Assembly (NCBI GenBank): GCA_963402885.1
Contig: OY727099.1
Coordinates: 12,822,001 to 12,886,000, forward strand
Length of the DNA: 64,000 nucleotides
Direction: 5' to 3'
Source: Antedon bifida
Lineage: Eukaryota; Echinodermata; Crinoidea; Comatulida; Antedonidae
Shown: piece after piece, positions 5,960-63,140 of the stretch
How the letters are laid out: each line of letters opens with the position of its first letter
How positions within the stretch are numbered: position 1 is the first letter of the stretch
Position numbers and translations under genes: made by a program
The notes under the pieces: generated by a model
What the model saw: only the letters and a program-made list of their open reading frames with translations
The model's database searches: none
What the model was told of the DNA's origin: nothing

Positions 5960-7656
5960 TTACTTTTTTGAAAGTGTAAATCCTGGTTGAAGAGGTTCTT
6001 CACGAGTCATGGGAACGGTAAACGGACTTACAGACCTCGCTCTTGCCAAACAAGCTGCTATCCGTTTGCGCTTTTCCTCTTCTGCTTTGGTTTTCTCATC
6101 CTCTTTGATGGGGGTTTCTTCTGGATTTTTATCTTTTGTACAATCTGTTTTTTCATCTGGTTTGTCTTCTTGTTCTGTTTGTGGTTCATCATTTTTGTCG
6201 GGTTTTTGATCTTCTGGATTTACGTCCTGTTTCGGGTTTTGTGGTTGCTCAGTTTCGTCTGTATTGCCCTTTTCGTTGTCCGTGTTTTCTACATCTGTTT
6301 TTGTTGACTCGTCTTCATTTGAACTTTGATCTGTTACCGGGGTTTCTTCTTGATTTGTGTCCTGGTTCGAGTCTGTTTTGTCCTCTGTCTTGTCGTTCTG
6401 TTCAGTTTTTGGTTCCTCCGTTTCGTCGTTGTCCGTGTTTTCTACTTCTGTTTTTGTTGACTCATCTTCATTTGGACTTTGATCTTTGACCGGGATTTCC
6501 TCATGTGTGTCCTGTTTCGGTTCTGTTTTGTCCTCTGACTTGTCGTTCTGTTCTGCCTGTGGTTCCTCGGTTTCGTCTGGATTGCTTTCTTCATTATCCG
6601 TGTTTTCTACTTCTGTTTTTGTTGACTCGTCTTCATTTGAACTTTGATCCTTGACCGGGGTTTGTTCTTCATTTGTATCCTGTCTCGAGTCCGCTTTGTC
6701 CTCTGTCTTTTCCTTCTGTTCATCTTGTGGTTCCTCAGTTTCATTTGGATTGCTTTCGTCGTTGTCTGTGTTTTCTACTTCTGTTTTTGTTGACTCATCT
6801 TCATTTAGAATTTGATCGTTGACCGGGATTTCCTCTTGATTTGTGTCCTGTTTTGGGTCTGTTTTGTCGTCTGACATGTCGTCTTGTTCTTCTTGTGGTT
6901 CCTCAGTTTCGTCTGGATTGCTTTCGTAGTTTTCCGTGCTTTCTACTTCTGATTTTGTTGGCTCATCTTCATTTGGACTTTGATCTTTGACCGGGATTTC
7001 TTCTTGATTTGTGTCCTGTTTCGGATCTGTTTTGTCCTCTGACATGTCGTCTTGTTCTTCTTGTGGTTCCTCAGTTTCGTCTGGATTGCTTTCGTAGTTG
7101 TCCGTGCTTTCTACTTCTGATTTTGTTGGCTCATCTTCATTTGAAATTTGATCAGGAATGTTATTGGGTTTAGTTTCTGTTGTGTTATCATTTTTGGTTT
7201 CTTGTTGTGCGGGTGTTTCGTCGTTTGTGTCTGTATTGTATTCATCGTTGTCCATTTTTTCATCTTCTGTTTTTGTTGACTCATTTGAGTTCTGGCTTTC
7301 AATTTTGATCGGAATTTCATCTGGATGTGTATCTTGTTTAAGGTCTACTATTTTGTCGTCGTCTTCCGATTGGCCGTCCGTTTTTTCTGGATGATCATCG
7401 TCAGTTTTCATATTTTCATCTTCGGGTTTTGTTAAGTCATCTGGATTTGGAATGTTATCTTGTACAGGTGCTTCTTTTGGATTTGTATCGTGTTTATTCT
7501 CCTTACTAGGCTCTAACTTGTTTTGTTCTGCTGTTGGTTTGTCATTTTTTTTTGAATTCGTATCGTCATTGTCTAATTCTTTATCATTTTCTATTAGTGG
7601 TTTAATTACTTCTGTTATTTCTGAAGTTGAGGAATCTTTTATTTCATCATTCTGTT
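5960..7656 (-). CDS. Gene 1 exon 24: acidic repeat cytoplasmic tail and stop
   Basis: The exon encodes 564 residues plus stop TAA at 5960-5962. Composition is extreme: Glu, Asp, Thr, Asn, Lys, Gln and Pro, almost no hydrophobics. The middle is about five copies of a ~57-residue (171-bp) repeat with landmarks NEDEPTKSEVES, NPDETEEPQEEQ and QDTNQEEIPV. The last ~40 residues differ (KRKRIAACLARARS, then SPFTVP) and are basic. The acceptor is attaattag, phase 1, which fits exon 23. The region is probably intrinsically disordered; no known signalling motif was identified. Confidence 0.88.
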
Positions 7657-10600
7657 CTAATTAATAATTCAATAAAAAAAATGATTGTTAGAAATACTGC
7701 CAATGTATTACTTTACAAACGTTTCTTTTAATAATACTATTGAGTGTTGAAATACAATCGTGTACAACGGACTAAAAATGTAATATTGGGATATCTTCAC
7801 CTGTATCTGGCTTTGGTTGTTCTAAATTAGTATCTTTGTTTTCTTCTGGTAGTTGTTCAGGGGCTAATTTGTGAGGTTCGTCGGTGATTGGTTTATCATC
7901 AGCCACTGGTTCTTTTGCTTTAGTCACTGTGGCATTAGGAAGCTGCAGAAGTTGTGCACTTTCGTTTTCATTATTTTGGTCTGCAGGTTTTACGACATTG
8001 TCTTGCGGAGTGTCTTCTGGCAATTCTAGTATCGGTGGTGTATGTACCACCTTGGTTTTTTCTTGGTCCTCAGGTACTGTCTTTTCTTGCACTAGCCCTG
8101 GTATATCCTCTTCGTTGTATTCTTGTCTTGGACTGGGAGACCGATCTAATTGAGGCTACAAGTGAGGAAAGTAATACAAATAAACATCGTTGATTTTAAA
8201 AACTGAATAACTCGCCAATTTCGGGGTAGATAAATTATAATTGATATCGTCCTTATAAACTAAGTCAGTTGAAGCTTATGGAGTGTGGAGTAGAAACAGT
8301 CATACTCTATTGGTACTATTGGTAAAAATAGAACCCTGACCCTTGAAACTACTAAGCTACATCTCAACTAGGCCTACTTCAATCCACTACTTTCTCCCGT
8401 TTATAAATAATATTAATACATTATGATATTTGTATTTAATCCATATCCATAACAGTATCAATAATTCTTAGTAAATTTAGTTAAGTTAAAATATAATTGG
8501 TGTAACTTACAGTTTTCAAACCATCCTCTGCATCAGACACATTGTCGGGATCATTTTCAGTTTCTTGTATACGATTATGTAATGGTATACTTTCTAAATA
8601 AGATAATCATAATAATTGAAAGCTATTAGTAAAACAAAAATATTTTTAATTAGTATAAATGGCATAGCCTAATTCTATATTATTTTGCTATATTATAACA
8701 CTAACAGAAACAGCCTATGAACAATTTTAATTTGAGCATTTACAAGACTTGAAACGGATTCCGAAAAATACGATTAGCCAAAACTAAATCAGCCAATAAT
8801 TATGCTGTTGTTATGGTACAATTTTGGCAGGACAATCATGACATTATTAGGCTAAAACTTCGAACTGAATAAATTGTCATTGTCTGTACAAAATAAAACC
8901 TCAAATTTGAACCGTACAAGACCGTAAAAGTGATTCTTTCTTACCCGTTGCATGGAAAAGAGCAGGAGATTGACGAGCTGGAGGTAAGATTCTCTGAAAG
9001 AAAAGATTACTTTTTCTCAGTATTGTTCTTTAATCAACGGTAAATGTTAAAACTGATGATAAATTTGTTATAATTGTATGAATAAATCTTTATGTTGTCT
9101 CTGTTTTAGTGAACTTCCTAGATAAACGTGTCATGTATAATATTTGGGGAAATGTTAATGCGCCTTTTCTGTTGATTATAATTTACTTACCAAATGTTGT
9201 TGATCTTGATTCTGTAAATTTGCAACTTTCGTGCGGGCATTTGATTCATTCATGTAGTACTCTTGAACCTACAATAGTGATAACATAATGGGAATTTATA
9301 ACATACTATTCTTTTTTAGTCGCGTGCAAACACGACTCTATAGCTCACTATGTCGGTCGGTTGGTCGGTCGGTCGGTCGGTAAAGACTAACTCAAATTTG
9401 CGCACGCGACTGCAGCCATGTATATGGCCTTGTTTTATTATTGCCCTACATTTCAATATAGTATTATATATATACGATGTACACACACTTAAATAGCCAT
9501 ATTTTCTTAATTTCAATCTTAACAAAATAGACACACTTATTTATTCAAACAGTACTATTGAATAGCTTGATACTCTTGTGTATATTGGAGGGAAATGTGG
9601 GGACTAAAGTTTCATCAGATCTACGCGCATACACCTTTCAATGTAACAATACTATTTTAATTCTAAGGATAGCCAACAGAAATGTTCACCTACTATATGA
9701 TTTCGCATTCCAAAAAATATAAAGATGTAAATGGATAAAACGAGACCAAACATGGCAAAGAAAACTTGATAGCCTAGAGAGTTGATGTGCTTCGTCGTTA
9801 GACCTCCGAACAACCAAGTCAAACCAGTTAGAACAGCCACAACACAAATATCCCTCAGTGAGATCCTATCGAAGAAATATTAGTAATGATTGATAGTAAA
9901 AAAGGTCAAGTAAAACATCTAGGCCTAATGTAATATATAATTATATTTATCATATTTCGACATTACCAATGACATGTTTGTCACGAATGACCTGTTATGA
10001 ACATATTAATAATGTATTATATAGTGATATAATAATTGGTTTTAAACCGATCGGTTAGATACATACACTAGATATGGTTCCAGATGGTTGACGTCACTGT
10101 ACATATTCTTGTTATTATTGTAGTTTATAAGTATTAAACAACTGATGCAACTCTGTAAAAAAACATGGATTTTAGTGTCGTAAGGAAAATTCCAAAACTT
10201 CTTAGTTTATTGATGGTATAGCCTATATCTAGACATCAAACGTAGTTTTTAGTGTTTAAATAAAGCAAACTGTAAACAAAATTGAGCAAAATAAATAGGC
10301 CTACATCAGTAAATAGGAAGTGAAATGCGAAAGACATCACCGGTGTAATGTTTTTTGTTTATATTTCAAATTTATTTTATGCAATTTGCAGGTACTATAA
10401 ACATAATAAATAAGTGGACGGAATATACCCGGTGAAAGTATTACAATGTGTCGCTCCAATACTCCGAACCACATACACAAACATATAAAGTTAATTGAAC
10501 ATGATAATTAATCCATGTGCAATTTATGTTTGTAAACCAAAAATCAATAATGACAGAATACAACTGTGTCTACTTACAAGCATGATTAAAACTGCTGGGA

Positions 10601-13600
10601 GTATATACGCCGCCAAGAAACCTTTATCTGTACTCATCCAACACCTATAGAAAGTACAAAGATTTAATGATTACTCAAAACGTTCTTTTTGTAAGGAATA
10701 CTGTAAATGAGTTGGTGGTTTATACGGTTATGTTACACTAATACATTATCAACAAACTTGGTTTGTTTTATGATAACATCAACCAATTAAAAAAAAAATT
10801 CTTCAATAGCAGCATTCGCTTTTAAAAGAAATAACGAGTCGTGATTTTTTATTTTGTATACGCGTTATGACATTTTTGAGGTTAAATAAACTTGTAAACA
10901 AAACTTGAATACACAATGAAACGATAACATTACACGTCATTGCTGCCGTATCCTTCATAATATGACGCCATTGTGAAGAAAGTTATTACCAAAGGTAAGC
11001 ACCAACCAATCAAAATATGAGAGATCAGGATCTTTCCATTTTGAGGGAATGGTGTTATCATGGTAAAATGAAGATAGACTCCTTCTAGCAAAACCCACAT
11101 GAAGTGAACAAGTAGAAAGAAGTGGAGAAAGATTGCAGTCGCCCTACATCCACTCTGTAAAAAGAAAAAAATGTGTTACGACGAAGGTCTACAATTAATT
11201 CTATTCACACATGCCGGGTTGATGTAAGCTTAGCATGTACAGTACTAAGAGAAAGTTCTCTATTTTTATCATCAATACATGATATACATTTATAATGACA
11301 TGATAAATTGTACCAAACTTACAATGGTGTGTGTATCTTCAATGCCTGCCAAAAATGTTATAAAACAGCATACTAATGATAGTACAAGATTACCATGTAC
11401 TATTAGCCAATGCGCACGAGTAAAAGCACTACAAAGAAAAAAAATATAAACAGTAATAATTGTTTTCGTACACGAAAATTAAGTACTATTTCTCGATCGA
11501 TAAATAGTTCGTACTAGTCCTGTGACCCACATTCGTCCAATAAAATGACAGGAATTCATGTAGGTGTTATATAAAATTGAATATTAATTAATTTGAAAGT
11601 AATAGTACTTACTAGACCCATATCAGAATGAATAGTGTAAGGAAGAGCATTATCAGTCCAATAATAATAAAAATATAAACAATATGTGCCAGATCAATAC
11701 TGCTGGAAACCTAGTAAATGAAATTTAAAATTAGTCCTAAATATATGATTTTAACAATATAGGGGACACCTCCGGGATCCAACATTATCACCGTTTGTTC
11801 GTTTCACGGTAAAGTGTCCGCATAACGGGGGTGTCACTTAAATAAAGTAGGTTCAACATTCTAGGCCTACTGTATTTTCTATTTTATGGTATCTGCGTGT
11901 TTGTAATGGAAATGCTTTTTTCAACAAATGATAAAAGCCAGGGACTGAACATGACATCAATCATAGTATCAGTAATTTGCAGTTATTTATGATAAATAAT
12001 AATAATAATCAAAACAATCTGTGTCAGTTATAGAGATATCATTATAAAGAAGAATTCGCTCTACCAAATATCTGAGATGATTTTAAGTTTCATAATAATA
12101 ATAGTAATTTTTATTTTCTTTAGTTTTAGTTTTATTTAATTTGCAATTGTTATAGGTTGTGTACCGTATTTACTTTTTATTTACACCCATAAAAATGAAA
12201 TTGGCCAACCATACTACTATTTCGAATTCAATGGGCTTAAACAATTTACCTCTTCAATTTCGACTACTATTCCAAAGTTGGTTGTATGAGAACATTCACA
12301 TTGCATTTCAGTATTTATTTCCGATGTACTGGTACACCCTTCTGTAGACCAATCCCTACACAAAATTAAAAAATTAATTTGATTATAAAAGAACAAGTTT
12401 GTAGCGAACCTGTTGTAAACAAAATACCTAATTAAAAATAATGCAGCTCAAAAATAAAATGCGTGTGGTATTAATTAATAAGAAAAAATCGTCTAAACCA
12501 GAGAAAAGTTATATAATATTTATTATTATTTTATAAATATAGTTTATAGCAGATATGTTATGTTATTATATTGCATAACTTTTCAGTATCGGTGTATTGG
12601 TATGAAATGTAATATATTATCATTTTATTAAGAAACATACACAGACGGTGTATCCCAAAAGCGACAAGTGGTTGTTTTTTCTTCTTTGGTTCCATCTTGA
12701 TTTTCACTTTCTTCTGCAAGAATCTAAAACATAAACGTTAATACAAATATTATATAATGATGTCTAATGGAACAAATGATTTAAACCCTTAGTAAAATAA
12801 TCAATAAATACACTTACAGTGTCGTATTCCAGAGAAAATTCAACGGGAACAGAACGTATTCCCGAATCATCAAACACAGAGCATGAAATCACACCACTTG
12901 CTAATATTTTTGATTTACTGGAAATAAATAAATGTTAATTTTAAACTTAGTCGTCTAGCTTACCTGGATAAACCGACAATAAACCATGCTCTTCAGAGTG
13001 AGGGCTTAGATATGAAAAGCGTAGGGACGTTTTATATTCTTTTACTTCTTTGTAGGACCGTAACTTACAAACATAAATAATAATGGACGATGGGACAATA
13101 TGGTGGCGGATCGGTCCATTATGGCAAAGGGAATTTTAACTTTCGTACGTAAATCCTCCCTCCCTCATTGGCTATTGTCAATTTAGCCAGGTAAGTGGCA
13201 CTCATAGACTACTAACTCAACTATTGGTTTGTGTAAAGTATCTACGCGCATGTTGCATATCAAAATTGGGCAACTTATCAAGTTTTAAGTTCTATTGTTT
13301 ACTACTTGTTTAAATATAATAAATACATTTTTTTTTTAGAAAATGCATTCTTACCTTTTCAATTCTTCGTTATTGACTGCTTGAGATGATTTAAAAACAT
13401 CTTTGTCATAATAAATTACAGACATCCCTATTGTACCTACGTTAGGAAAAAGCAACTTGATTTCAATGTGTTGACATCAATAGCGAAGTGAATTATATTA
13501 ATTATTTTGATATTAGTATAGTCGTTACCAGGTGTGCTTTGTGTATTTATACTAACATATGTAACGTGACCAGGTGAGTTGATTTTTATACTTATATATA

Positions 13601-16600
13601 ACTTAATCCATGGTTGATTATATAATCGTTACGTGATCAGGCGAGCTGACTGTATTTATACTAAACCTGTAACTTGATCCATGGCTGAATATATAGTCAT
13701 TATACGTGACCAGGTTAACGGACTGTATTTCTAGGCTACTAACCTGGCTGATTATATTGTCGTTACGTGACCAGGTGAGTTGATTGTATTTTTACCGGTA
13801 CTAACTTGTAAACTTGTTCCGAGGCTGATTCTAATCTTTAGTTGACTAGGGGATTGGGAAGTACTAAATCCATATTTAAGTTTCCAAATAGAGTTGAAAT
13901 TATTTCGCTTTAGGCCTACCTGTAACTTGGTCCAAGGCTGAGTCTTTAAGCTTTAGGTGACCAAGTGAGTTGACATTAAATGTCTTCTTATCATCAATTG
14001 ATGAGGAAATATTGGAGTCAATTTCGTGGTTGAAATTAAACACTAAAGATGCTGCCTCCTCAACAGAATCTGTATTGATAATATTGATGGCTGAAAGTAA
14101 ACAATTACAGCGATATAAGTTTTCACACAATTATAGTTATTGATTAATAAATATTCCCTTGAAATGTTTCATTACCATGACACTCCTGTGATTCAGGCAG
14201 TTTAATTCCGGAACATTTTAAAATGGGGGAAATACCCAGTTTGAATAACATATTTAAAAGTCATTATTGGTCAAGTTTCTGATTTCATCATGCAATATTA
14301 AGGGTTTTATGTTTATATTGTAATACTTCCGGGGACTTGCTTTTTCTAACAAAGATTATAACAAATAGCTACAATATATTGTATATCATAACTATAACAT
14401 TTTATGTCGCTATATATCCAATTTCAAACCTATATTTTTAGAAGACAAAGTAAAGTTGGTTCCTGTCGGTAGGTTTGCAGCTGACTTGACAAGAATAAGT
14501 TCCATTGAAACCGCAACTCCAAGTACATCATCTTCATCCTGGAAATGAACAATTGTAATACGGAATGTTATAAACACAGAAACTATGTCAATTTAAGGTA
14601 ATAATAAGGACAACACGTCTTTGACAATACATTTTCGCCATGCTTTCAGAACTTTGAATGTGATTTATTTTAGCCATAATGGGCATCTTTTAATGAAAAA
14701 AAAACTGCCACATAAATCGCATTTAGGCCAACAATACTGCGTGGTTTAATGCAATATAGTACTACATTAAAATGATGGGGTCTTTTAAAGCCGCCAAGTT
14801 AATATAGTATTGATAGTTACCAATTTTTGTGCAGGATCAAACAGATTCTCTGCAACGTCTCTCAAATTCTATAAAATAATGAAAATAGTAATAATATAAG
14901 TAGGAAGTAGTTCAAGTGTTTATCATTAATTTTGGCAAGAATGCAAAAAATATTCCAAATAGACCAACCTCAGCTCTTGTTTTGATTTCACCTTCACTCC
15001 CTTCCTGATCAAAAGATGCAATTTCATCCAAAGTAGATAACAGTAGGTTTATATCACTTTCACTAAGTTGGTTATCGTCATTTTGATTCAAATACTCAGC
15101 GGAAACTGATAGTATGTTATCCTGTGTTTCATTCGATAAAGTTGATATCTGTAAAAGAAGTTCAATTGTACTGAATAGTTCTAGGTTGAATAACTTTCGG
15201 TATATTCTATTGATGCCAGAAAGAAATGTTATTTGAGTGAGTGAATGACAGTTCGGTTAATACAGTAATCTATAGCCATAGCATCGAAAGTGCTGAAGGC
15301 TCATTGGCTTCATGATTCTGGTAGTAGTCTTCTCGGATAAAAACTATAAACCGTAGGTCCAGTGTACACAAAATACATAATACCTACTACATCTTTCGAG
15401 ACGAGTAGGGGTTTACCCCGGTGTACAAGCCCACACATCTACTGTAGTGGACAGACAAAATGAGCGCAAACAGTTCGTAGACATAAATTGACCTCTTTGA
15501 GAGAAGCATGTTGTTGAAAAGTGTAATATCTAAGACCATGAGTAATGTTTGTTGGAACGGCGCTATATAAATGGAAAATATTATTAAATTATTATTTATT
15601 ATCTATTTATGAATTTGTCAGACCGAAGAAGATTTCAGAGCCAAAATTCATGTTTCATAATATAATGGATGATATAGACCTACAACCTCTATCAATTAAT
15701 AAATCAGATCAGGCAAGTCGAATCTAATAGATTACAGGCTGTTTACTCCAAGAATTATTAGATAATCATGATCATAATCATAAACAACTCACAAGCTCTA
15801 TAGTTTCGTCATCAAATATTGAAGGAATTTCAGTCGTCATTTTAACAGTGGTTGTAGTCTGGACGTTGGTCGTAACTTCATCGTCGACTACATCATCTGT
15901 AACGTTGGTATTTTCGTTTGCGTACTCAATAATTGTTACATTATCATTGTAAGCTTCATTTGTGGCACCATCTGCATTGATCGTTTCGGTTGTTGCTTCC
16001 TGATCTGAGATGATGTTTTCGCTTGTAGAAATTGTATTGGGCGTAGTTTGAGCATTCTCATTGTTTGCTTGTGTTTGAGATGCAAATATTGTAGCACTGT
16101 TTGTAGCTTGGGCATTAGTAGTGGCTGCTGTATTTTCATTGTTTGCTTGTGTTTGAGGTGCATTTGTTGTGGCACTGTTCCCGTTTGTAGCTTGGGCATT
16201 AGTTGTAGCTGCTGTATTGTCATTGTTTGCTTGTGTTTGAGGTGCATTTGTTGTGGCACTGTTACCGTTTGTAGCTTGGGCATTAGTTGTAGCTGCTGTA
16301 TTGTCATTGTTTGCTTGTGTTTGAGGTGCATTTGTTGTGGCACTGTTCCCGTTTGTAGCTTGTGCATTAGTTGTAGCTGCTGTATTGTCATTGTTTGCTT
16401 GTGTTTGAGGTGCATTTGTTGTGGCACTGTTCCCGTTTGTAGCTTGGGCATTAGTTGTAGCTGCTGTATTGTCATTGTTTGCTTGTGTTTGAGGTGCATT
16501 TGTTGTGGCACTGTTCCCGTTTGTAGCTTGGGCATTAGTTGTAGCTGCTGTATTGTCATTGTTTGCTTGTGTTTGAGGTGCATTTGTTGTGGCACTGTTC

Positions 16601-26120: not shown

Positions 26121-26124
26121 TATT

Positions 26125-27420: not shown

Positions 27421-27424
27421 TCTT

Positions 27425-28886: not shown

Positions 28887-28893
28887 TTTATTA

Positions 28894-33989: not shown

Positions 33990-34000
33990 CAGAACCGACG

Positions 34001-35421: not shown

Positions 35422-35494
35422 GTTACCTAAAAAGATACTTGGTAACGGTGATTTTCACGAATCTCGCCTAAGCCTCGCTAAAACACCGCCACGC

Positions 35495-38648: not shown

Positions 38649-39014
38649 GCCCTGGGTTGTGGATCAAAGGTCAGAAATGGCATTTCCGGTCATTTTTGAC
38701 TAAAATGTCACATTAGACTGAATATAAATGTATACCTTCTGATCAATTTGAGACCAAAATTACCTTTCTGTGACCAGTGGTTGTCGAGATTTAAGGACAT
38801 GTTGGTGTTTGGTATTATAACCTTTCACCCTGACCTTTTGCCACATTTTCAAAATGTGTAACCAAGCCAAAATTGATTGTTTGACCATCCTAAACCAATT
38901 TCTGAAGTCAAATTCTCTGGACCTCAAAGTACATACGAAAGTTGATCTAGCTACTAGAGTACCGTGCTTGTACAATGGAGGCTGCGATTCTTATTTTAGT
39001 TGGCCCCTATCAAA

Positions 39015-54300: not shown

Positions 54301-57300
54301 ATGAATCATGGAGGAAGTAAACGAATAGTTAGACATAGGGAAATTTACTTGCTCCATGGAGAACGAAGTCCACACATTTTAAAACTACTACTCCTATATA
54401 AAATTACTTGAAAAATAGAATAGAAATTCACCATCACCATTATCATCCGCCAGCATTAACATAATCATCATGGTTTTAATTTTAGTTCAGTTCATTCAAT
54501 TTTACAAACAACAGACAAATATAAAAAATGAAAACAAGATTGAAGAAAATATATGAATGAACTGAGGATAACCCAAGAATGTTTAATAAAAAGCTTATTT
54601 CTTTTGAGGTCCCCAAATTAAAGGGAAACGCTGGGTACCTGACTCAAAATGTGTTCCCTTATAGTCTGAAAGTTGAAGTTGTCACTATCAATACACTACC
54701 TTTGAGATAGTGAAATGATGACACAAGCTGAAATTGCATGCAATCATGTTTAAAGAAAGTTATAACACTCCTAACGGAGTTAAATTCATTTCATTTTTTT
54801 TGCATAATAAAATAATCTTTTTGATCGGCTATCGATTATATTTAATATAACAGATTCATTGGGGCTAACCATAATGCACATCAATCAGGAAAGTTATTCA
54901 ACTGAACTCGACGAAAACAAGTAAGTTGTACAAGTTACTTAGTAGGGACTTTACAAAACACGACGGTTAGGGGAGGATGACGAATACAGCATCCTGTGTT
55001 CCCTAGAGCGTAAAATCATAACAGTCAACATAGCCGTTTATTATTTATGTGAAGACGACGTATCTCTCTCCCTGTCTCGTGGCGTGGGGCCCTTCTGAAT
55101 CGCTTGGCTCTGGTGATACAGCTTAGGCCTAGCCTTCCTAGCATTCAAACGCCGCTTTTAACATAGCCATTTTAACCCAATAAAAATGTTATTTCATTAA
55201 ATTAGAAGTTCAAATATTAGTTAGAGTTTTGAAAATTCCACGTTTAAGGGTAATTTAAACTGTATATTTAAGGTTATATATACATTATTTCTAGTCGTTC
55301 TCCGTAAACTGGGAAATGGCAAATTTATCGTTAAAGTTAAGACGACGTAATTTCCATTTTTTTAAGCACCGTCCTGTGGCTTCCCGTCGTGTTTCGTTCA
55401 ACGTGACCATTTTAGGGAGCTTTTGATTTCCGACGACCTAACTAGTTCACGTCAATATTATCGTTTTATTTCATAATACTGTTTGTAATTCATTAAAATT
55501 TGTTTAATTATTAACATTACATTAAACATTAATAATCAACAGAGAGACTTACGGTACCGCTAATACGGCAAGTGGGATTCTATCGGTTACATTAACATCC
55601 AACTCAAGAAAAGTTCAAATGGGAGTTAACTTTTCATTAGCTACTAACACGACAGGATTTAATGATGGAAAAGATATGGTAATCAAAGAAAAGGAGATTA
55701 AATTCAGAAAAGGCACAAATAAAACTAGGGCTATTGTGTGTTCTTTCTGGGACACAAGCTTCGAGTAAGTAATTCAGATCACTTCTTTATGACATTACTA
55801 GCATTATCAACATCAATTGTTATCAATCGTTTGATTGGATTAATCACGTATTTTCTTCGTAATAGGGTTTGGTCTCAGTATGGATGTAAGAAAGTGTTAG
55901 CGGACGACCACAGTGTGTCATGCGAATGTAATCATACAACAAGTTTTGCTGTACTTGTTCAAGTTAATGAAGCTGAGGTACATATATTTATCTACACTTG
56001 TAGGCACATTATAGCTCGACAGTATACTATTATTGTTCTGGAAAGTCCAGACATCATTTATGTTCTTTTTTACGTGATCCGTGCTTTTTTCAGAATAATA
56101 ATATTTATCACTATTACTATCGTCTCGTGTGTTTCCCTCTTTGTCTTATGTACACATAAAATCTGCCAGCCAATAAAATAGTGGATATTTTCGGATCCAA
56201 AAAGAACATATACCTAAATGATGAAGTAGAAAATACTGGGGTGCTACAAACTCCAATGGATGCCATATGAAATGGCGTCCAGCAGCCCAGTAAGTGAAGT
56301 GTCGGAACTTTTCAGGACAATAAAGGTGTCGAACTATAATGAAACTGGTGTTGTTATTTTGTTATTAATCAATCTAGACAATATCAACAATAACGATTGG
56401 CCTACAGTAAAAGTGCAACTGTAATTCAACTGTCTAGCTACGTAGCACTTTTGCTTTTCAATTGTGAGCATCTTTCCCGTCAATACCATGTAATAACTCC
56501 TACAAGTGCAGAATGTTAAAGTAAATGAAATTCTGGTCACTTTCATTTTATTATTAGTATAGTGTAATACAATATTGACGTGACTGTAATAAATTGAGGG
56601 ACTAACGATAACGGTAGTACCGAACATTACTACATCACAAAATCCGATTGGTGTGTGACAATGGGTTTATATCTTACAGTATTTATTTTAATATATTATA
56701 TATTTTACTACATAAATGTTCACAGATAAGTACAATTCATGACACAATCCTAACAGTCATCAGCTACGCAGGAGGCGCTCTTTCAATATTGTCACTTACG
56801 TTTGTGATTGGCCTGGTATACTATTTAACGTAAGTATGGCATTGTGATTTAGTATTGTCATTGTCACAATGATGAATGACAGACACTGGTATGCTTATGA
56901 GAATCATCATTAATTCTGTTCTGCGTATATGAAATGATCAAAATGTTCAAATAATGATGATAATAAGGATGATAATGAAGATTACTTTAAAGATGGTAAT
57001 TAATATGAAGATAGTGATGATAATGATAATGATTTGGATGGTGATTACTAACACAATCTAACAGCAAGATAATGAGCTCCGGTTGATCAAAGAATTCATC
57101 AGTGGTTGTGACACGATCAGTGACACGATCAGTCCCACGCTTTCTGACTGATTTTCGATTCGCTATTTGGCTTCCTCAAATGTTTGGTTAAAAGACACCG
57201 GAAATTATTTAGTACTTATAGTTATTTATTCAAAATGCAACCCACTTTCATTGTAAATTTAATCAATGAGGTAATTTACTATTATTAGTTAGGGAAAAAC

Positions 57301-60300
57301 ATTTTAGTTAAGTTTAGTCTACACGATAATTAGTTTGTGCAAACATTGTCAAAATGAAGTTTAACAATTCGCAAAAATTAAATTTAGATAAAATTACTGT
57401 TAAATCCAATATATTGTGTTTATATAATGAAAACCATTTCAAAAATTAGATACATATTAGAACTTTTTGTTCGTAATAAAAATCAGACACATTGGACATT
57501 GGATACAACATTTAATCAAATAAGAATAGACACATACACTATGAAACATAGGGTAACATTCAGCCGATAGATAATGTTGACTTACTATGAAGACGTTGAT
57601 AATGGAGTAGACAATAATGATCACTCCAAATGTGTAGTATGAGGATGCTGATAGATGATATTGGTGTTTCTGCTAAGATTGTGTTGTTAGGTTCCTGGCA
57701 ATGATATGAAAATAATGTATTCGCTTTAACCTTTTGCGCAGAGAGTTGGAAAAATCAGACCACGTGTTAATAATGAAGAATCTAATGATTACTTTGGCAC
57801 TAGGACAGAGTGTATTCCTTGCGGGTGTTGACAGAACTGAATCGATGGTACGTCACCTTAATACACATTATTCTTTATTTATTCTTTATTTCAAACCAAC
57901 AGTGTAAAACACCAATAACAGGTTGAAAATAAAATAACTAAACTATAAAATATGAGCCAATATAAATATATACAAAATGAAAAAAAGATTATTTAAATAA
58001 TTTCATTAATAATACACTTAAATTATATGTTATATTATTTTAAAATACTAGCAGTTTTTAGTGTTCTACAATAAGTGAAAGATAAATATAAAGAATAAGA
58101 TAATATAAAATAAAAAAAACCAATAAATCACTGTGTGAGTAAAGGATGTATTGTTCCGCCCCCTAAAAAACATGAAAATGAAGATTAATAAAATCAGACT
58201 CTGAAGATTATGTAGTTTTAATAATTCTCTTCCATAGAAACAAAATAACAAAATTAAAGGTTTCACTTATAAAAAGACATTATAAACTGTTAAATTTAAC
58301 CAAATACCCAATGGCTGACAGACTATCTGACAATTTTTTCTTTAAATTACAATTGTAAGTAATTTGTTGGGGGCGGGGGGGTATATCTTTAAACATAAGA
58401 CATTTAAACAAATTTCGAATAAAATAACAAAGATTGTTTTGAAGTCATCGTTTGCACCAGGCCTACTGTAAATAATACTCATGAACGTTCTTGTTCTCAA
58501 CAATAGATTTTGTGCAAAATAGTGGCATTCGTTCTCCAGTTTCTTTTCATCGCTATGTTTATGTGGATGTTCAATGAAGGATTGTATCTCTATCGCCGAC
58601 TTTGGTTGGTTTTTGGTGAAAACTCGACAAGTGCTCGGCAGTATAACTTGACCGGTTGGGCAATACCTGCTGTCTACGTCATTGTCTGTTTTATAATGCG
58701 TTCCAGTGATTATGGAACAGAAGACAGGTATGTCTGCAAAGAGTTGTGTGATTATTATTATTATGCATATTATTTATGAACTATTCATTTTATTGAAGAG
58801 ATTAAAGATTAAATTTCGGAACAACACAATCTACTCGATGTTCATTTCCAGCAATAGCAAATAAATACGACCAATATATGAACATGTTTTAAGTCACTTT
58901 CTGTAATGCTTTGTTTTAATTTTAAAAGGGTTAGTAAAGTATTTATATTTATTGGTGGGTTAAAAAACGAGCTCAACAAACACATGATTTAATCAATAAT
59001 GAGAGCAATTTCCTAAAATACACCGAAAAAAGATCTGATTTAAAAACGTTCTTTTTCAAATTAATAATGTTTTATATAATTTATATATATTATATAATAA
59101 GACATTGAATAAATTCCATTGTTGCTTTTACTATTCCTTATATGTTTTTTAATTGCACATGCTAGTTAAGTCAATGCTTATTGCATTATTAAGCTCAGTT
59201 GTATTTTGTATTCGTACAGTTGTTGGTTGAGTCAAGACAATGGACTGATATGGACTTTCGTGATACCTGTCCTTGTTATCATTTTTGTGAGTTTTTATTT
59301 TGTAAATAGAATCAAGCGCTGCTAGAAAAACGGCAAAAAGTGAAAGCTAATAATTTTTAGCATTACTTCGAATGTGTGAATTATATATTTTTATTGTCTA
59401 GTTTACAATAGAAGGTCGTGTACTTTTTCTTAAAATGGCACATGGAAATTGAAACCTAAAACAGTAAAAATAATAAAATATTATGGAAAAATATATATAT
59501 ATCAAAATATAACTATTGTTTTCATTCATATTGATTTCATTATGAATTTAAATTATTGTTTCATTAATGGTCACTATGCAGACGAAGGCTTGTTTGAATT
59601 TAAAACATTTACTACAACCACGAGGGGACACAAATACAAAATCTATAAACCATTTTTTCTAGAGCAAGAACATTTTCTTTACAAGAGCAATGAATAAATG
59701 GACTACTTTGTCCAAAGAGCTTGTCAATGCTCAGTCCATAAATAGTTTCAAAAACAAATTGGACACATGTTCACAAAACCATACAAAACTCATTAAAATA
59801 TTTTCACAATTTTGCCACCCAATTTAAGCATTAGTCATAATACAGTTCACCACCTTCTACCTTATTTTCTTGTTATGTGTGTTTTCAGAGCGGTTAACAG
59901 GCAAAAACGCCTTCAACCGAAACATCTTGTAATCCTGTAATACCCCACCTTTCTGTGTTTTGCTATTTCTCGTATAATCGACAACATTACAGCAAAACAT
60001 CTTTATTTTGTAGATAAATGTGGTTTTGCTCCTGCTTGTTGTGCGTATCATCATCAAAGCTGCTAAAGAAGTTGGAAGCACGTACGACCGCGTCAAGTAT
60101 GAACACGTCACTACTTTTTAAAACTATTTAAAAGATCCGAACATTAAAATAGACTTCATATTTCATTTCTTTTAAAATTATATTGGTCATTTATGTCGAC
60201 ATCAAACTATGTTTAAAAAACTACTATAACTTTCTAATAACGATAATTTTACCAGCGTATATTACTTTGACATAACACACGTTTAAAGAAACTATTCTTG

Positions 60301-63140
60301 CCATTTAGCAAATACAAAACATCCATTATTTTATGTATATACCTGATTGTATTCTTGCAATTGCATTGGTAAATTACGAATTACGTAATATTATTTCTAC
60401 CTAACGGTAAAGAGATCGACTGATGATAATTAATGGGCTCACGTTCTGTTTTTTGTAAACATTTTGAGAATGTTTGCCACGCGATGTTGTTTACTGATCC
60501 GCGTTCGAAAATCAACTTATACCATTTCAAGTAAACAATTATTTTCTTCTTTATTAAGTAGAGATTATAGCAATACATGCAATTACGTAAGAAAAGACCA
60601 ATAAAGCAAAAGCTTTTGATATGCTAGCTCAAAAATAAAAAAGACAAACATTGAAAAAAAAAATGTTTATAACTCCGCAGCACTCCTTTTTTTTAATGCC
60701 ATGTCTTCCCGACCTAGTGATCTCAATTTTAACGTTTAATAAAAGTAAATTACCAATACCAAGTATTACGAAATCAACCAATCAAATAGCAATCTTATAA
60801 TAGTTTTATTGTAGTAATATTCTGTTTTTAAATCAATATTTACAGGAAGAATACACGGAAGTCAATACTGGTAGTACCTATTCTTGGTATGACATGGGTA
60901 TTTGGCGTGGCTGCTGTTGGTCCTTTCATTAAAGTGTTCACCTACCTGTTTGTGATCTTCGCCTCATTCCAAGGACTTGCTATTGCCGTATATTGCTTTA
61001 CAAGTAACGAGGTGAAGATACTAAAACATTATTAAATTTAATATCTAGGCAAATCGCATTAATACAATATATTATAAATAGATAAGTATATAGCTTTCAC
61101 TTATTATTTTCAAAACTTTCGACAATATCAGCAACTGATATGATGTATGATACCAATTAATAAGATGGTTCGTAAAAGGACTAAAGCTCTGTCTACACTA
61201 ACAAACTAGTTTGACAAAACAAGTGTGATGTGCCCAAATATGGTAGTGATATGACATCATCATCATGTCCATATATGGGCACATCACATTTTTTTGTCAC
61301 ATGAAGTTTGATAATGTAGAAAAAGCTTTAGAGAGAAGTATTCCGTCGGCGAAGAAAAAATAATAGGTCATTTTAGCAAATACAAAACATGCCGTTGTTT
61401 CTAGGTATTTCTGGGGTGTTTTCTACAACTTTGTGATTTCAGTTGAAGTAATTGCATTCTGAAAATATTTCCAATTTATATATAATATTTTCCATATGCA
61501 AATTTTTGTATAGGTACAATATTAATATAAAATGTATTAGATTCATTGTAATCCACTGAAAACATAATAGTTCATCAACAAAGTCTTTGCAATTGTCTTG
61601 ACAGATTCAGAAGGCATGGAAGACCAAACAAGCAGAAAATTCGCCGGTAGTAAAACAAGCTACTTGGGCTACACAAAGAACCGATTCTGTTAGTTCACTT
61701 GTAAGTCTGACATTTATTAAAATCGAACATGATTTTAATTTAGAATTACAATTGAGATGCTAATGTTTTAGAATACAATACTTCAGGACAATTGGTTGTG
61801 GAAATTAATTGTGAGATTTGTTAGGTTAAGTTTTGTCCGTATGAATTTTTTGTCGAATAATTATATTTAACTACTAAAACTATCTAGAAAGTAAAATCTC
61901 ACAAACATTAACAACACGTTTTGGTGTTCGCTAGTACAATTACGGGAAACTACTCTAGGTATTGATCTCAATATATACCGTAGTGAGTTTGCAAAGTACT
62001 GTTTTATAATTGTGCTATTTGAGGAGTAGGTTTGGAAATTGTGTTCATATTATGTGTTTATCTTTTACCTGCTAAAATAATTATAGTTTCATAAAGTTCC
62101 TTCATATCTTAAAGCATGCAGGCATTTCTTGGTAGTCAATAAACAGTCAATAAACAATTATTATCTACAGAATGATATGCCATCGTACCAGGGAGAAACG
62201 TATTATGATGACTTTGGCAAAATTGTACCATATCGACTGCAGTTTGGATACCGGCCTAATGTGAAAAAGATGTCGAAGAAGAAGCTTGCCATGAAACAGA
62301 ATGAGCCCCAACGTGATGAGGTAAGTTAAAACAATCAGGCACGGTATCCAGAAATGTCGTATAGAGGAGGGAGAATTGGTATAAAACCTAGCACAATATT
62401 ACAAAAGCCAACCATAGTATAGCCTAATCATTATTATTCTGCTTATTATTAGTTTAATACATGGTTGTCGTTTGAAAATCTTAGGATTTTAACGTCGAAT
62501 GTACAGTATATCATGCAGTATTACATCAATGCTTAAATCTGTTTACTTTATTTCTTTTATATAGTTGTTTCTTTCTTATTGAAATATTGTTGTTAGATCA
62601 AAATTTATGCATTATGACTAATTTATTTTTGTGAAAGGAATCAAACCTCGATTAGCGAAAGCTATTTTTTGGCTCCTTTTCACATATATTGTACTATTTA
62701 TATATGATGTGAATAAAGTTGGTATTATATCCAAAATGGCCACGCTTACTTTTAATATAATGGTGTGTGCCTGATTACTGTATACAGTATTGTAATTGTT
62801 GTGGAGTAGCTTTGCGTCAGGGTGTTGAGTAATTGGTCAGATGTTTTGCCCTACTTTGACGTAATTTGTACTTCATACTAAGTACATTGAGAATACTTGT
62901 TTATTTCGCATTTATTCTCAATGTACTTAGTATGAAGTACAAATTACGTCAGAGTAGGGCAAAACATCTGACCAATGTATACATTATATCATAATAGAAA
63001 TGATTATTTTGACGTATTGATATTATTAATAATGTAAACATAATTCGATTTTATTTCAATAGATGATGCGTTCACCACCTCCATCCTATGAGGAAACAAT
63101 CCAGAAAAAACAAATGCAACTACAAATTGAGGACTTGTAG
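39343..63140 (+). CDS. Adhesion G protein-coupled receptor gene 2 (SG repeat, SUEL lectin, two discoidin domains, stalk, GAIN/GPS, 7TM, PPxY tail)
   Basis: Gene-level entry; 35 coding exons are listed separately. The joined frame is 4182 nt (about 1393 residues). Order: signal peptide (1-24), Ser-Gly repeat (25-75), SUEL/Gal lectin (about 77-167), Ser/Gly/Glu linker (168-219), F5/8C 1 (220-381), F5/8C 2 (382-546), Thr/Glu-rich stalk (547-737), GAIN (about 738-999), GPS with H-T-T at about 1023-1025, 7TM (about 1045-1286), tail (1287-1393) ending with PPPSYEE and IEDL. All modules N-terminal to GAIN are flanked by phase 1 introns, as expected for exon shuffling. It probably binds glycans or matrix through the lectin and discoidin modules; the specific ligand is unknown. 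Confidence 0.9.
39786..39923 (+). mobile_element. LINE 3'-coding remnant in gene 2 intron 1
   Basis: The frame reads RLQKGLIISKNHFWNSLPDY, then VSSVNSFKKRLDQSVV before a stop: the C-terminal signature of CR1/jockey-like reverse transcriptase polyproteins. Only the last ~45 codons remain. Confidence 0.65.
40322..40373 (+). CDS. Gene 2 exon 2: signal peptide core
   Basis: A 52-nt exon, phase 0 to 1, acceptor taatttttcag, donor CAAA|gtaagt. It encodes VIITLSILYINSSSGSQ: a hydrophobic core, then a small-residue region where signal peptidase could cut. Parallel to gene 1 exon 2. Confidence 0.7.
40711..40863 (+). CDS. Gene 2 exon 3: Ser-Gly repeat
   Basis: A 153-nt exon, phase 1 to 1, acceptor attacaattag, donor GAAG|gtaaga. 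It encodes 51 residues of almost pure Gly/Ser (GSGSGGSGSGSGSESGSGPG) from a GGATCAGGTAGT-like coding minisatellite. Ser-Gly dipeptides next to acidic residues (SESG, RESSEG) are candidate glycosaminoglycan attachment sites. Repeat number is probably variable. Confidence 0.82.
41003..41278 (+). CDS. Gene 2 exon 4: SUEL/galactose-rhamnose-binding lectin domain
   Basis: A 276-nt exon, phase 1 to 1, encodes one complete SUEL-type domain. It has eight Cys, the YGR motif (VRYGRYNSG), CNGQPHCEVG, and the DPC motif followed by KY (DPCPGTYKYTEVDYTC). These are the sugar-binding landmarks known from sea urchin egg lectin and rhamnose-binding lectins. Donor CAAA|gtaagt. Single domain in one exon with symmetrical phases. 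Confidence 0.95.
41376..41531 (+). CDS. Gene 2 exon 5: Ser/Gly/Glu linker
   Basis: A 156-nt exon, phase 1 to 1. It encodes 52 residues with two related halves (TTDSSSQSGEESDMVTNEDV and TTGSGSQSGIVTGEEV), a small internal duplication. More Ser-Gly sites next to Glu; likely an extracellular glycosylated spacer. Confidence 0.87.
42277..42605 (+). CDS. Gene 2 exon 6: F5/8C domain 1, N-terminal half
   Basis: A 329-nt exon, phase 1 to 0. It encodes WISVDIGKIETIIGIITQGD and DGWITEFRLELS, the discoidin core. Donor GAG|gtaagt. The half-domain split is shared with gene 2 domain 2 and with gene 1. Confidence 0.94.
42606..44336. other. Gene 2 intron 6
   Basis: 1.7 kb with GT microsatellite near 42915, AT-rich DNA and a 63-codon plus-strand frame at 44044-44235 (KRERIRKRKRN) that shows no known domain. 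Nothing else seen. Confidence 0.4.
44337..44493 (+). CDS. Gene 2 exon 7: F5/8C domain 1, C-terminal half
   Basis: A 157-nt exon, phase 0 to 1, acceptor tttcaatcag. It encodes HIFRSDATSRHDRTTN, LAQHVKLHVAGHHG and YLRMEIL, matching the F5/8C C-terminal pattern (R/H-x-V-K-L-x-V, L-R-x-E). Confidence 0.92.
44655..44712. other. Possible transposon junction motif
   Basis: Contains 'gtgcgacgtttcgactgttt' followed by 'ccaacagtctccttctggca'. On the minus strand this reads LLETVETSH, a peptide common in repeated DNA of many animals. I suspect a mobile-element remnant, but the family cannot be assigned. Confidence 0.25.
45088..45428 (+). CDS. Gene 2 exon 8: F5/8C domain 2, N-terminal half
   Basis: A 341-nt exon, phase 1 to 0. 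It encodes EVCGYVGLHNSTIYRNRF, PWISFDLHRRTTIFGIVTLG and DGWVSEFELEF: a second discoidin domain. Donor CAG|gtaaga. Confidence 0.94.
45502..45735. repeat. 116-bp tandem duplication in a gene 2 intron
   Basis: Two nearly identical units starting 'caatttgggttatatttta' at 45502 and 45618 and ending 'gccaattaccggc'. Only a few single-base differences, so the duplication is recent. Confidence 0.9.
46141..46294 (+). CDS. Gene 2 exon 9: F5/8C domain 2, C-terminal half
   Basis: A 154-nt exon, phase 0 to 1, acceptor aaatttacag chosen because it aligns with exon 7; an upstream AG (46086) would add 18 in-frame codons. It encodes RFQVSRASRYQCVLSMF, DFVKLHVKGC and YLRVAFVKG. Confidence 0.9.
46568..46609 (+). 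CDS. Gene 2 exon 10: stalk start
   Basis: A 42-nt exon, phase 1 to 1, acceptor gttttcag, donor GAAG|gtaagt. It encodes AAILYELAFDSDCE, a short linker after the second discoidin domain with one Cys. Confidence 0.8.
46769..46819 (+). CDS. Gene 2 exon 11: Thr/Glu stalk repeat 1
   Basis: A 51-nt exon, phase 1 to 1, donor CTC|gtacgt. It encodes PPTTTPMLETTEQQTT. It is the first member of the duplicated exon series in exons 11-14. Confidence 0.82.
47146..47187 (+). CDS. Gene 2 exon 12: Thr/Glu stalk repeat 2
   Basis: A 42-nt exon, phase 1 to 1, acceptor ttcttcacag, donor CTC|gtacgt. It encodes TPLETTQAEQQTT plus a split Arg. Confidence 0.85.
47513..47554 (+). CDS. Gene 2 exon 13: Thr/Glu stalk repeat 3
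   Basis: A 42-nt exon, phase 1 to 1, acceptor ttcttgacag. It encodes TPLETTRAEQQTT; one amino acid differs from repeat 2. Confidence 0.85.
47876..47917 (+). CDS. Gene 2 exon 14: Thr/Glu stalk repeat 4
   Basis: A 42-nt exon, phase 1 to 1, acceptor tttttcacag. It encodes TPLETTQAEHQTT. The duplicated intron sequence stops shortly after this exon. Confidence 0.85.
48140..48429 (-). pseudogene. Unassigned Cys-rich minus-strand frame in a gene 2 intron
   Basis: A 110-codon frame whose first ~95 codons have coding-like composition and higher GC than the surrounding intron: MYSTVGICREFLSCQGELS, ACHCRIIYVASLPNETC and SFVFCGN, with seven Cys and N-glycosylation sequons. No domain recognised and no clear splice context; it may be a processed gene fragment on the opposite strand. 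Uncertain. Confidence 0.3.
49020..49103 (+). CDS. Gene 2 exon 15: stalk
   Basis: An 84-nt exon, phase 1 to 1, donor CAC|gtaagt. It encodes TDRHTTHQSDVVDTPMMETT and EQEPQTT; the second half resembles the exon 11-14 repeat, an older duplicate. Confidence 0.82.
49822..49878 (+). CDS. Gene 2 exon 16: acidic stalk
   Basis: A 57-nt exon, phase 1 to 1, acceptor caatttatag, donor ACAG|gtaagt. It encodes EADIAKTIEEDEGYVTYT. Frame and phase fit its neighbours; no domain. Confidence 0.78.
50038..50076. repeat. 13-bp perfect inverted repeat
   Basis: GAGACAACAATAT and ATATTGTTGTCTC are separated by 13 bp in the intron after exon 16. A small stem-loop; significance unknown. Confidence 0.5.
50215..50725 (+). 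repeat. 18-bp intronic minisatellite carrying GTAAGT
   Basis: Unit AGTGTAAGTGGTACGGGA, about 28 copies, with a higher-order duplication of about 210 bp (blocks starting near 50263 and 50475). On the sense strand each unit contains GTAAGT, the consensus 5' splice site core. Not coding on the plus strand. Confidence 0.88.
50936..51049 (+). CDS. Gene 2 exon 17: acidic stalk
   Basis: A 114-nt exon, phase 1 to 1, acceptor tactttgtag, donor ATAG|gttagt. It encodes EVVELDVDYTSLIQEEDEEL and EIIIEEELSTTTSAY, strongly acidic. Confidence 0.8.
51050..51811. other. Gene 2 intron 17
   Basis: AT-rich intron DNA; no repeat family of this window or coding potential recognised. Confidence 0.4.
51812..51910 (+). 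CDS. Gene 2 exon 18: stalk
   Basis: A 99-nt exon, phase 1 to 1, donor GAC|gtaagt. It encodes INVHSSETTHKSDIETVATT and MDTTQRIPRTR. The THKSD and TT-rich pattern resembles exon 15. Confidence 0.8.
52225..52256 (+). CDS. Gene 2 exon 19: entry to GAIN
   Basis: A 32-nt exon, phase 1 to 0, acceptor ccttttgacag, donor ATG|gtaagt. It encodes RFNIFNNVERM and shifts the phase from the modular 1-1 stalk to the phase 0 GAIN exons. Confidence 0.78.
52492..52656 (+). CDS. Gene 2 exon 20: GAIN subdomain A
   Basis: A 165-nt exon, phase 0 to 0. It encodes DDAPAENVLNAVSESG and EEEVTSIHSILKKISLGN, a helical pattern equivalent to gene 1 exon 6. Confidence 0.88.
52910..52957 (+). CDS. Gene 2 exon 21: GAIN subdomain A
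   Basis: A 48-nt exon, phase 0 to 0, encodes TILKMTRVLLDPRNNL. Same length and phase as gene 1 exon 7. Confidence 0.88.
53273..53381 (+). CDS. Gene 2 exon 22: GAIN domain
   Basis: A 109-nt exon, phase 0 to 1, the same as gene 1 exon 8. It encodes KLNAATLTEDIISKMTGHL and ESIIVKEDNM. Confidence 0.87.
53820..54098. mobile_element. MITE-like element, copy 3
   Basis: In a gene 2 intron, bounded by 'ttaaagatgtattgtccacc' and 'ggagataatatatcttaa'. Shares 'aaattcaaccaaaaccc', 'gctttaaattacattttttc' and 'ttttggtcaaagtaaata' with copy 1. Confidence 0.7.
54152..54295 (+). CDS. Gene 2 exon 23: GAIN domain
   Basis: A 144-nt exon, phase 1 to 1. It encodes AGCYHMDKSQFENTVFDIP and GKLKPILPDGFSSF. Same phases as gene 1 exon 9. 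Confidence 0.87.
54854..54920 (+). CDS. Gene 2 exon 24: GAIN domain
   Basis: A 67-nt exon, phase 1 to 2, donor CAA|gtaagt. It encodes DSLGLTIMHINQESYS and ELDEN, equivalent to gene 1 exon 10. Confidence 0.86.
55543..55764 (+). CDS. Gene 2 exon 25: GAIN subdomain B and start of GPS
   Basis: A 222-nt exon, phase 2 to 2. It encodes SGILSVTLTSNSRKVQMGVN, FSLATNTT and the first GPS Cys/Trp (AIVCSFWDTSF). Gene 1 splits this into two exons. Confidence 0.91.
55866..55977 (+). CDS. Gene 2 exon 26: GPS second half and tethered agonist
   Basis: A 112-nt exon, phase 2 to 0. It encodes VWSQYGCKKV, then SCECNHTTSFAVLVQVN. The cleavage tripeptide is H-T-T; TSFAVLV after it closely matches the consensus tethered agonist (Phe at +3, Leu at +6). 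Confidence 0.94.
56726..56829 (+). CDS. Gene 2 exon 27: TM1
   Basis: A 104-nt exon, phase 0 to 2, acceptor tgttcacag, donor AAC|gtaagt. It encodes ISTIHDTILTVISYAGGA and LSILSLTFVIGLVYYL, the family TM1 with I-x-Y-x-G pattern. Confidence 0.92.
57742..57847 (+). CDS. Gene 2 exon 28: ICL1 and TM2
   Basis: A 106-nt exon, phase 2 to 0. It encodes VLIMKNLMITLALGQSVFLA. The canonical H-x-N-L is here K-N-L; the N-L is retained. Same length as gene 1 exon 15. Confidence 0.91.
58143..58396. mobile_element. MITE-like element, copy 4
   Basis: In the intron between TM2 and TM3 exons. 'gatgtattgttccgcccc' on the left, 'gggtatatctttaaac' on the right; internal 'aaactgttaaatttaacc' and 'ctttaaattacaattg' match the family. 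Confidence 0.68.
58507..58727 (+). CDS. Gene 2 exon 29: TM3, ICL2 and TM4
   Basis: A 221-nt exon, phase 0 to 2. It encodes ILCKIVAFVLQFLFIAMF, MWMFNEGLYLYRRLWLVFG and GWAIPAVYVIVCF. W-M-x-x-E-G in TM3 and G-W-x-x-P in TM4 are adhesion GPCR signatures. Confidence 0.96.
59220..59286 (+). CDS. Gene 2 exon 30: ECL2 and TM5
   Basis: A 67-nt exon, phase 2 to 0, donor TTT|gtgagt. It encodes CWLSQDNGLIWTFVIPVLVI with the conserved ECL2 CW. Same length as gene 1 exon 17. Confidence 0.93.
59520..59795 (+). mobile_element. LINE 3'-coding remnant in a gene 2 intron
   Basis: The frame contains DEGLFEFKTFTTTTRGHKYK, then after a frameshift WTTLSKELVNAQSINSFKNK: the C-terminal 'TTRGH' and 'S-x-N-x-F-K' signatures of CR1-like reverse transcriptases. 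Truncated and frameshifted. Confidence 0.65.
60014..60096 (+). CDS. Gene 2 exon 31: end of TM5 and ICL3
   Basis: An 83-nt exon, phase 0 to 2. It encodes INVVLLLLVVRIIIKAAKEV and GSTYDRV, the family TM5 N-x-x-x-L-L pattern and basic ICL3. Confidence 0.92.
60846..61011 (+). CDS. Gene 2 exon 32: TM6, ECL3 and TM7
   Basis: A 166-nt exon, phase 2 to 0. It encodes RKSILVVPILGMTWVFGVAA, YLFVIFASFQG and LAIAVYCFTSNE. L-G-M-T-W-x-F-G in TM6 and F-Q-G in TM7 are diagnostic for adhesion GPCRs. Confidence 0.96.
61181..61333. mobile_element. Foldback MITE in gene 2 intron 32
   Basis: An imperfect palindrome: 'ctaaagctctgtctacacta' and 'acaagtgtgatgtgcccaaa' at the left are mirrored by 'atgggcacatcacat' and 'gtagaaaaagctttagag' at the right, with arms of about 70 bp. 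Non-coding; typical MITE hairpin. Confidence 0.75.
61605..61700 (+). CDS. Gene 2 exon 33: membrane-proximal tail
   Basis: A 96-nt exon, phase 0 to 0. It encodes IQKAWKTKQAENSPVVKQAT and TQRTDSVSSL. The basic helix directly after TM7 may lie along the membrane; Ser/Thr at its end are potential phosphosites. Confidence 0.9.
62171..62320 (+). CDS. Gene 2 exon 34: cytoplasmic tail
   Basis: A 150-nt exon, phase 0 to 0. It encodes NDMPSYQGETYYDDFGKIVP and KKMSKKKLAMKQNE. It has a tyrosine/acidic patch (YYDDF), then a strongly basic one. Confidence 0.9.
62832..62976. repeat. Near-perfect 64-bp-arm palindrome (foldback element)
   Basis: Arms at 62832-62895 and 62913-62976 are reverse complements with one mismatch; the loop is about 17 bp. 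Arm landmarks are 'attggtcagatgttttgccc' and 'acttcatactaagtacattg'. It lies in the last intron of gene 2. A degenerate relative is at 20185-20283. Confidence 0.92.
63063..63140 (+). CDS. Gene 2 exon 35: C-terminus with PPxY and stop
   Basis: A 78-nt coding part, phase 0, acceptor tatttcaatag. It encodes MMRSPPPSYEETIQKK and QMQLQIEDL, then TAG. PPPSY is a WW-domain ligand of the kind used by NEDD4-family ubiquitin ligases; the PPxY-EE form is typical for membrane cargo. Terminal EDL could be a weak PDZ ligand. Confidence 0.92.
   Translation: MMRSPPPSYEETIQKKQMQLQIEDL

Follow-up and report, generated by a model that had tools for sequence, protein, structure and literature searches.

Two head-to-head adhesion GPCR genes with discoidin ectodomains in Antedon bifida, probably old paralogues within a wider receptor group

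Two spliced genes lie head to head between positions 5960 and 63140 of the analysed stretch of Antedon bifida DNA (64,000 nucleotides, hereafter the window), gene A on the minus strand and gene B on the plus strand. We consider it probable that both belong to a group of adhesion GPCRs whose ectodomains contain F5/8C (discoidin) modules, in a receptor-rich genome, and that they are old paralogues which would have arisen by an inverted local duplication and then diverged in their ectodomains and tails, acting by the mechanism proposed below. The genes were read from the sequence and their exons were joined by script. All introns of both genes are GT-AG and the frames are continuous across 22 (A) and 34 (B) exons; the initial exon of either gene was not found in the window. 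The head-to-head layout of two genes described in the initial annotation agreed with the sequence in its coordinates, orientation and exon lengths, and the differences it had listed between the two proteins were present, namely an 874-aa stalk and a 753-aa acidic tail in A versus a SUEL domain, a second F5/8C domain, linkers and a PPSY motif in B.

Gene A (22 exons found, 19,874 to 5,960, minus strand) carries a single stop, at its end, the stop codon ending at 5960, and encodes in order an F5/8C domain (Pfam, 9.4e-16), an 874-aa exon with a stalk of 28-aa repeats, GAIN/GPS (GPS, 9.9e-10), 7TM (7tm_2, 3.6e-26) and the acidic tail. By Pfam and sequence, the F5/8C domain is divided between a first exon of 314 nt (19561–19874, phase 1-0) and a second of 142 nt (18698–18839, phase 0-1). 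The stalk exon (15793–18416), characterised by repeat and codon analysis, contains 25.4 copies of an 84-bp Thr/Asn/Ala repeat (95%); it is Thr-rich and holds two N-glycosylation sequons only. It is followed by GAIN exons of 180, 48, 109, 171, 82, 100 and 83 nt (12641–15148; A–B homology), a 106-nt GPS exon (12250–12355; Pfam) with the putative cleavage motif CSHT|TNFGIVVEI, 7TM exons of 98, 106, 221, 67, 86 and 172 nt (9694–11710; Pfam, spliced aligner), and tail exons of 78, 49, 83, 355 and 1697 nt (5960–9268), whose 753 aa (pI 4.1) include acidic repeats of 51–56 aa. A stop at 7772–7774 would cut the tail if the last intron were kept (7772–7800), and a short-tail form is possible.

Gene B (34 exons, 40,322 to 63,140, plus strand) is open over a single frame of 1,387 codons, counting the stop, which ends at 63140, and encodes in order a Ser/Gly-rich linker, a SUEL domain (Pfam, 1.2e-13), two F5/8C domains (5.1e-27, two stretches), linkers, GAIN/GPS (GPS, 1.1e-10), 7TM (7tm_2, 2.1e-50) and a tail with PPSY. 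In a frame check that used the outer acceptor of one exon, the correct frame contained the final stop only and the other frames 88 and 135 stops; upstream of 40,322 the frame reaches a stop without an ATG. The 5'-most known exons (40322–40863) encode a hydrophobic stretch, by eye probably the end of a signal peptide (52 nt), and the Ser-Gly-rich linker (153 nt). The SUEL domain, identified by Pfam and a PDB search, occupies one exon of 276 nt (41003–41278) and retains YGR and DPC-G-YKY, which we take to be SUEL motifs; a Ser/Gly/acidic linker exon of 156 nt (41376–41531) follows. Both F5/8C domains were found with Pfam, the first in exons of 329 and 157 nt (42277–44493) and the second in exons of 341 and 154 nt (45088–46294). 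For the latter half of the second domain the inner acceptor was chosen (start 46141, exon 46,141–46,294), which leaves the frame intact and excludes a stretch rich in Met and Ile. A PDB search with this second domain, in which the first letter of the query was wrong, returned 24 weak matches with E up to 0.1, to neuropilins, factor V/VIII and a venom prothrombin activator. Nine linker exons come next (42, 51, 42, 42, 42, 84, 57, 114 and 99 nt; 46568–51910), some of them tandemly duplicated; the splice sites of the low-complexity linkers were picked by hand on the basis of frame and phase alone, and the phase 1-1 shared by all nine is consistent with, rather than proof of, these exons being skippable. 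A tandem duplication of ~363 bp (46802–47967, 3.2 copies) multiplies a 42-nt Thr-rich linker exon plus intron, and an intron holds a period-18 array (50229–50752) in which many units contain GTAAGT, the splice-donor consensus. Exons of 32, 165, 48, 109, 144, 67 and 222 nt (52225–55764), mostly GAIN by A–B homology, lead to a 112-nt GPS exon (55866–55977; Pfam) with the putative cleavage motif CNHT|TSFAVLVQV, to 7TM exons of 104, 106, 221, 67, 83 and 166 nt (56726–61011; Pfam, spliced aligner), and to tail exons of 96, 150 and 78 nt (61605–63140), encoding a basic tail of 107 aa (pI 9.4) with SPPPSYEE near its end. The last intron contains a near-perfect inverted repeat (62832–62976, 64-nt arms, 17 nt between them), to which sequence near 20201–20290 bears a likeness by eye.

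Judged from their sequences, A and B are adhesion GPCRs (class B2) with discoidin ectodomains, joined in B by SUEL, as had been annotated. The 7tm_2 core scored 92.4 bits in A and 171.8 bits in B (Pfam cut-off 20.6), and GPS scored 39.2 and 42.3 bits, respectively (cut-off 22.5). The two proteins are homologous over F5/8C, GAIN, GPS and 7TM: the region that starts at the end of the stalk and takes in GAIN, GPS and 7TM aligned with 154 bits (26%), and the F5/8C domain of A matched those of B with 57.8 and 57.4 bits. GAIN was assigned in both by this homology and by position, no Pfam match covering it. Both GPS motifs have His at −2 and Thr at +1 (CSHT|TNF in A, CNHT|TSF in B), which we take to be the cleavage residues, and the ECL2 Cys-Trp, the TM3 Cys and the TM6 motif G-[LM]-T-W-[LV]-F-G, found in A and B alike, presumably have roles in the receptor; cleavage and activation are predicted for both. 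Scans of viral and genome contigs with B's 7TM gave 3 and 50 stretches that fit the pattern, respectively, and 0 relatives.

The exact exon lengths and common phases that had been noted for the pair were reproduced. Exons of equal length were found for 48 nt (14821–14868 in A, 52910–52957 in B), 109 nt (14430–14538, 53273–53381), 106 nt (11323–11428, 57742–57847), 221 nt (10934–11154, 58507–58727) and 67 nt (10578–10644, 59220–59286); all homologous junctions, beginning with the F5/8C exon pair (1-0-1) and running to the exon after TM7, have the same phase in both genes, and B's 222-nt GAIN exon is split by one additional intron in A. As a control, six further receptor genes from this genome (315.6 Mb, 27 contigs) were modelled with a spliced aligner, which recovered the 7TM exons of A and B with A's last exon 15 nt too long, a soft check in that the profile contained A and B. 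Gene g7.73 (C12) showed the run 104, 106, 221, 67, 83, which is that of B; gC15 showed 221, 67, 83; g11.96 showed 106 and 67, with 242 where 221 was expected; gC11 had only 67 of the 106/221/67 run; and g13.72 and gC16 had none of these three lengths. Since g7.73 repeats the 106/221/67 run in full and gC15 and g11.96 carry portions of it, the run is no mark of the A/B pair, and exon lengths as proof of a special pair, the use first made of them, were ruled out by g7.73. The exact 48 and 109 are common to A and B and absent from the one other gene checked, g7.73, whose counterpart of the 109-nt GAIN exon is 100 nt long and compatible with the same phase; on the GAIN of other genes the A/B profile was too loose save for GPS and one g7.73 exon. 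Equal 7TM exon lengths that recur across the receptors of one genome are thus a warning, being insufficient alone for pairing paralogues. Excerpted text of one publication gives vertebrate ADGRL and ADGRE a 7TM exon layout in common (PMC6667449).

By domain order along the genome, the group of F5/8C adhesion GPCRs is wider than the A/B pair. At least 155 7tm_2 places were counted genome-wide, exon by exon, and 150 of the 155 were compared with 150 of 159 F5/8C places and with SUEL places (31 of 31). Among the matches listed, a same-strand F5/8C place lay ≤20 kb upstream of a 7tm_2 exon in at least six genes (A, B and four more), at A, B, g11.96, C15:18.52 Mb (gC15b), C15:18.77–18.78 Mb and C13:15.32 Mb, and the mirror control, F5/8C downstream of 7tm_2, gave one place (C9) among the matches listed. 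Four of the six places were read as DNA (A, B, g11.96, gC15b). Like A and B, g11.96, gC15b and the other F5/8C loci have F5/8C upstream of GPS and 7TM and a related exon layout; unlike A and B, the g11.96 locus adds SRCR, C-type lectin and EGF modules to F5/8C before GPS, assumed to form one transcript (one of its four C-type lectin ORFs falls just below its cut-off), and gC15b combines F5/8C and GPS with a diverged 7TM. SUEL upstream of 7tm_2 exons was found, among the matches listed, for B, two C11 genes and C16:6.24 Mb, the last being ambiguous, as it lies inside a dense 7tm_2 run and appears in the downstream control too. A further locus (L049, G000:C10:30868001-30878000) has SUEL then F5/8C on one strand as in B, with no 7TM in those 10 kb, and was left uncounted; at G000:C1:19.66-19.73 Mb, a dense SUEL run precedes F5/8C places, all on one strand, in what looks like a cluster of lectin genes.

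Similarity of the F5/8C domains, adjacency and shared architecture together make it likely that A and B are old paralogues; that they are sisters is unproven. In comparisons of first-exon pieces, the F5/8C domain of A scored highest with the two of B (33.8 and 28.0 bits; 22.5 for the next), and a nine-row F5/8C tree grouped all three (73/86, weak, with long branches). The 7TM domains share 29% identity. Among 11 rows, A's 7TM scored best with B, narrowly (80.1 bits; 78.8 for ADGRL4, 77.9 for ADGRL3), whereas B's 7TM gave 138.5 bits with ADGRL2, 137.1 with ADGRD1, 136.6 with ADGRL3, 85.9 with the calcitonin receptor and 75.5 with A, which came ninth, eight other rows being nearer to B on the same scoring. 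In 7TM trees of 12 and 18 rows, the latter built without gC15b and the loci at C13:15.32 Mb and C15:18.78 Mb, A's branch measured 2.8–2.9 changes per column, and with calcitonin receptors as root B fell outside the rest of the adhesion receptors (89/85 and 86/87, not starred). The sister grouping put forward in the initial annotation is missing from the best tree, yet it was unrejected (p-AU 0.152 for 12 rows, 0.207 for 18 rows). A possible, though distinctly less probable, reading is that A and B are neighbours of different descent, with an exon layout inherited from ADGRL/E/D-like receptors and F5/8C captured twice or taken over from an older ancestor. It gains from the presence of B's run in g7.73 and of 221/67/83 in gC15, from the best 18-row tree, in which A joins g7.73 (47/26, unsupported) and B stands apart, and from a genome search with B's GPS-7TM, in which, of 116 matches, six stood below A's one listed exon (26.5 bits; for the corresponding exon g11.96 reached 41.1 and gC15 39.4). 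Against it stand the mutual nearness of the F5/8C domains, the 20.4 kb that separate the known exons of A and B, the unrejected A+B grouping, and the exact 48 and 109 in A and B where g7.73, the one gene examined, has 100 nt.

Much less probable is a second alternative, that B is a rearranged latrophilin (ADGRL). B shares with ADGRL a SUEL/RBL lectin domain and GAIN, and ADGRL2 was the best PDB match for its 7TM (140.2 bits), but ADGRD1 scored almost the same (138.8 bits), B has two F5/8C domains, and olfactomedin and HRM were not found in B by Pfam with E allowed up to 0.5, so that the order differs from the vertebrate ADGRL layout, as had been pointed out. Moreover, in the best 18-row tree A and B fall outside the ADGRL/ADGRE clade (99/98), and it is gC11 that joins it, a C11 gene in which two exons encode SUEL and one, just above cut-off, HRM; in AU tests of 12 rows, a placement of B with ADGRL/ADGRE was unrejected (p-AU 0.058), and placing A there gave 0.343. 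Because the genome has its own ADGRL-type gene in gC11, B is probably something other than an ADGRL, and the latrophilin assignment was set aside as very improbable. The similarity of B's 7TM to ADGRD1 is not matched by grouping in the tree (p-AU 0.122); the ectodomain of ADGRD1 is pentraxin-type. An improbable reading of another kind, though less so than the latrophilin one, is that the low-complexity parts (stalk and acidic tail of A, linkers of B) are partly intronic repeats read as exons and that the real receptors are shorter. The arrays are open in more than one frame, and the stop at 7772–7774 shortens A's tail if the last intron is kept; as the stalk repeats are open in several frames, their openness itself proves little. 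However, differences among the stalk units (22 of 25) numbered 4, 8 and 26 at codon positions 1, 2 and 3, that is, 26 of 38 at the third, and 18 of 35 changed codons were synonymous versus 24% expected by chance, in a count that omits three end units and, as the units share descent, is no formal test. These third-position and synonymous excesses suggest that the stalk frame is translated; further, the 84-bp stalk units and the 51–56-aa tail units are in frame, and the non-repeat ends join the F5/8C and GAIN exons in phase.

For A and B as diverged old paralogues of the F5/8C group, we propose that H-T|T in GPS is the site at which each precursor cleaves itself and that the extracellular fragment stays held on the 7TM fragment. 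F5/8C in both receptors, and SUEL in B, would hold a surface, matrix or glycan ligand, and pull or unbinding would expose a tethered agonist, TNFGIVVEI in A and TSFAVLVQV in B. This peptide would enter the 7TM and lead to G-protein signalling. The repeat stalk of A may be an extended spacer carrying O-glycans, splicing of the phase-1 linker exons may give B variants of different length, and the PPSY of B may recruit a WW-domain protein. On this proposal, A and B would illustrate how binding heads, stalk length and tail change round a fixed exon core in invertebrate adhesion GPCRs. In the PDB search, the SUEL domain of B matched single domains of L-rhamnose-binding lectins (5h4s, CSL3) best, with 53.2 and 48.6 bits versus 45.5 bits for ADGRL2, scores being compared per domain (the whole-chain 116.8 sums three lectin domains); unlike B, these lectins have two or three SUEL domains and lack a receptor core. 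We advance as doubtful the larger idea that at least six F5/8C adhesion GPCRs form a lineage-specific set, a glycan- or surface-sensing repertoire in which lectin and discoidin front ends were swapped round a conserved exon core, with B (SUEL + 2 x F5/8C, skippable linkers) as a splice-tunable member sensing galactose or rhamnose. The F5/8C set offers a concrete repertoire for the study of ligand swapping. A and B are additions to an already recognised mix-and-match type of invertebrate receptor: excerpts of a 2008 paper list discoidin (DS), C-type lectin and SRCR domains in adhesion GPCRs of amphioxus (PMC2246102). Like A and B, these combine discoidin or lectin modules in varied ectodomains, a likeness by description and not by sequence, and the excerpts do not give SUEL + 2 x F5/8C or the stalk and tail of A (PMC2246102). 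Sea-urchin adhesion GPCRs, in the excerpts of another paper, mostly cluster apart from human ones (PMC4302439). The order SUEL + 2 x F5/8C + GAIN + 7TM was not found in open-access titles and abstract openings, a partial coverage that leaves its absence unproven.

Between the nearest known 5' exons of A and B there is a gap of 20.4 kb. A short promoter common to both genes was ruled out, given this distance and the retroelement ORFs in the gap. These LINE-like ORFs lie on the minus strand at 33005–35454 and 36723–38663; three overlap (one with RVT_1 at 1.6e-14, one with a weak endonuclease, one with neither), and there is also one open ORF of 646 aa with RVT_1 (6.3e-35). Large tandem arrays with units of 15 bp and 40 bp occupy 26141–27409 and 3494–4932, respectively, outside the modelled exons.
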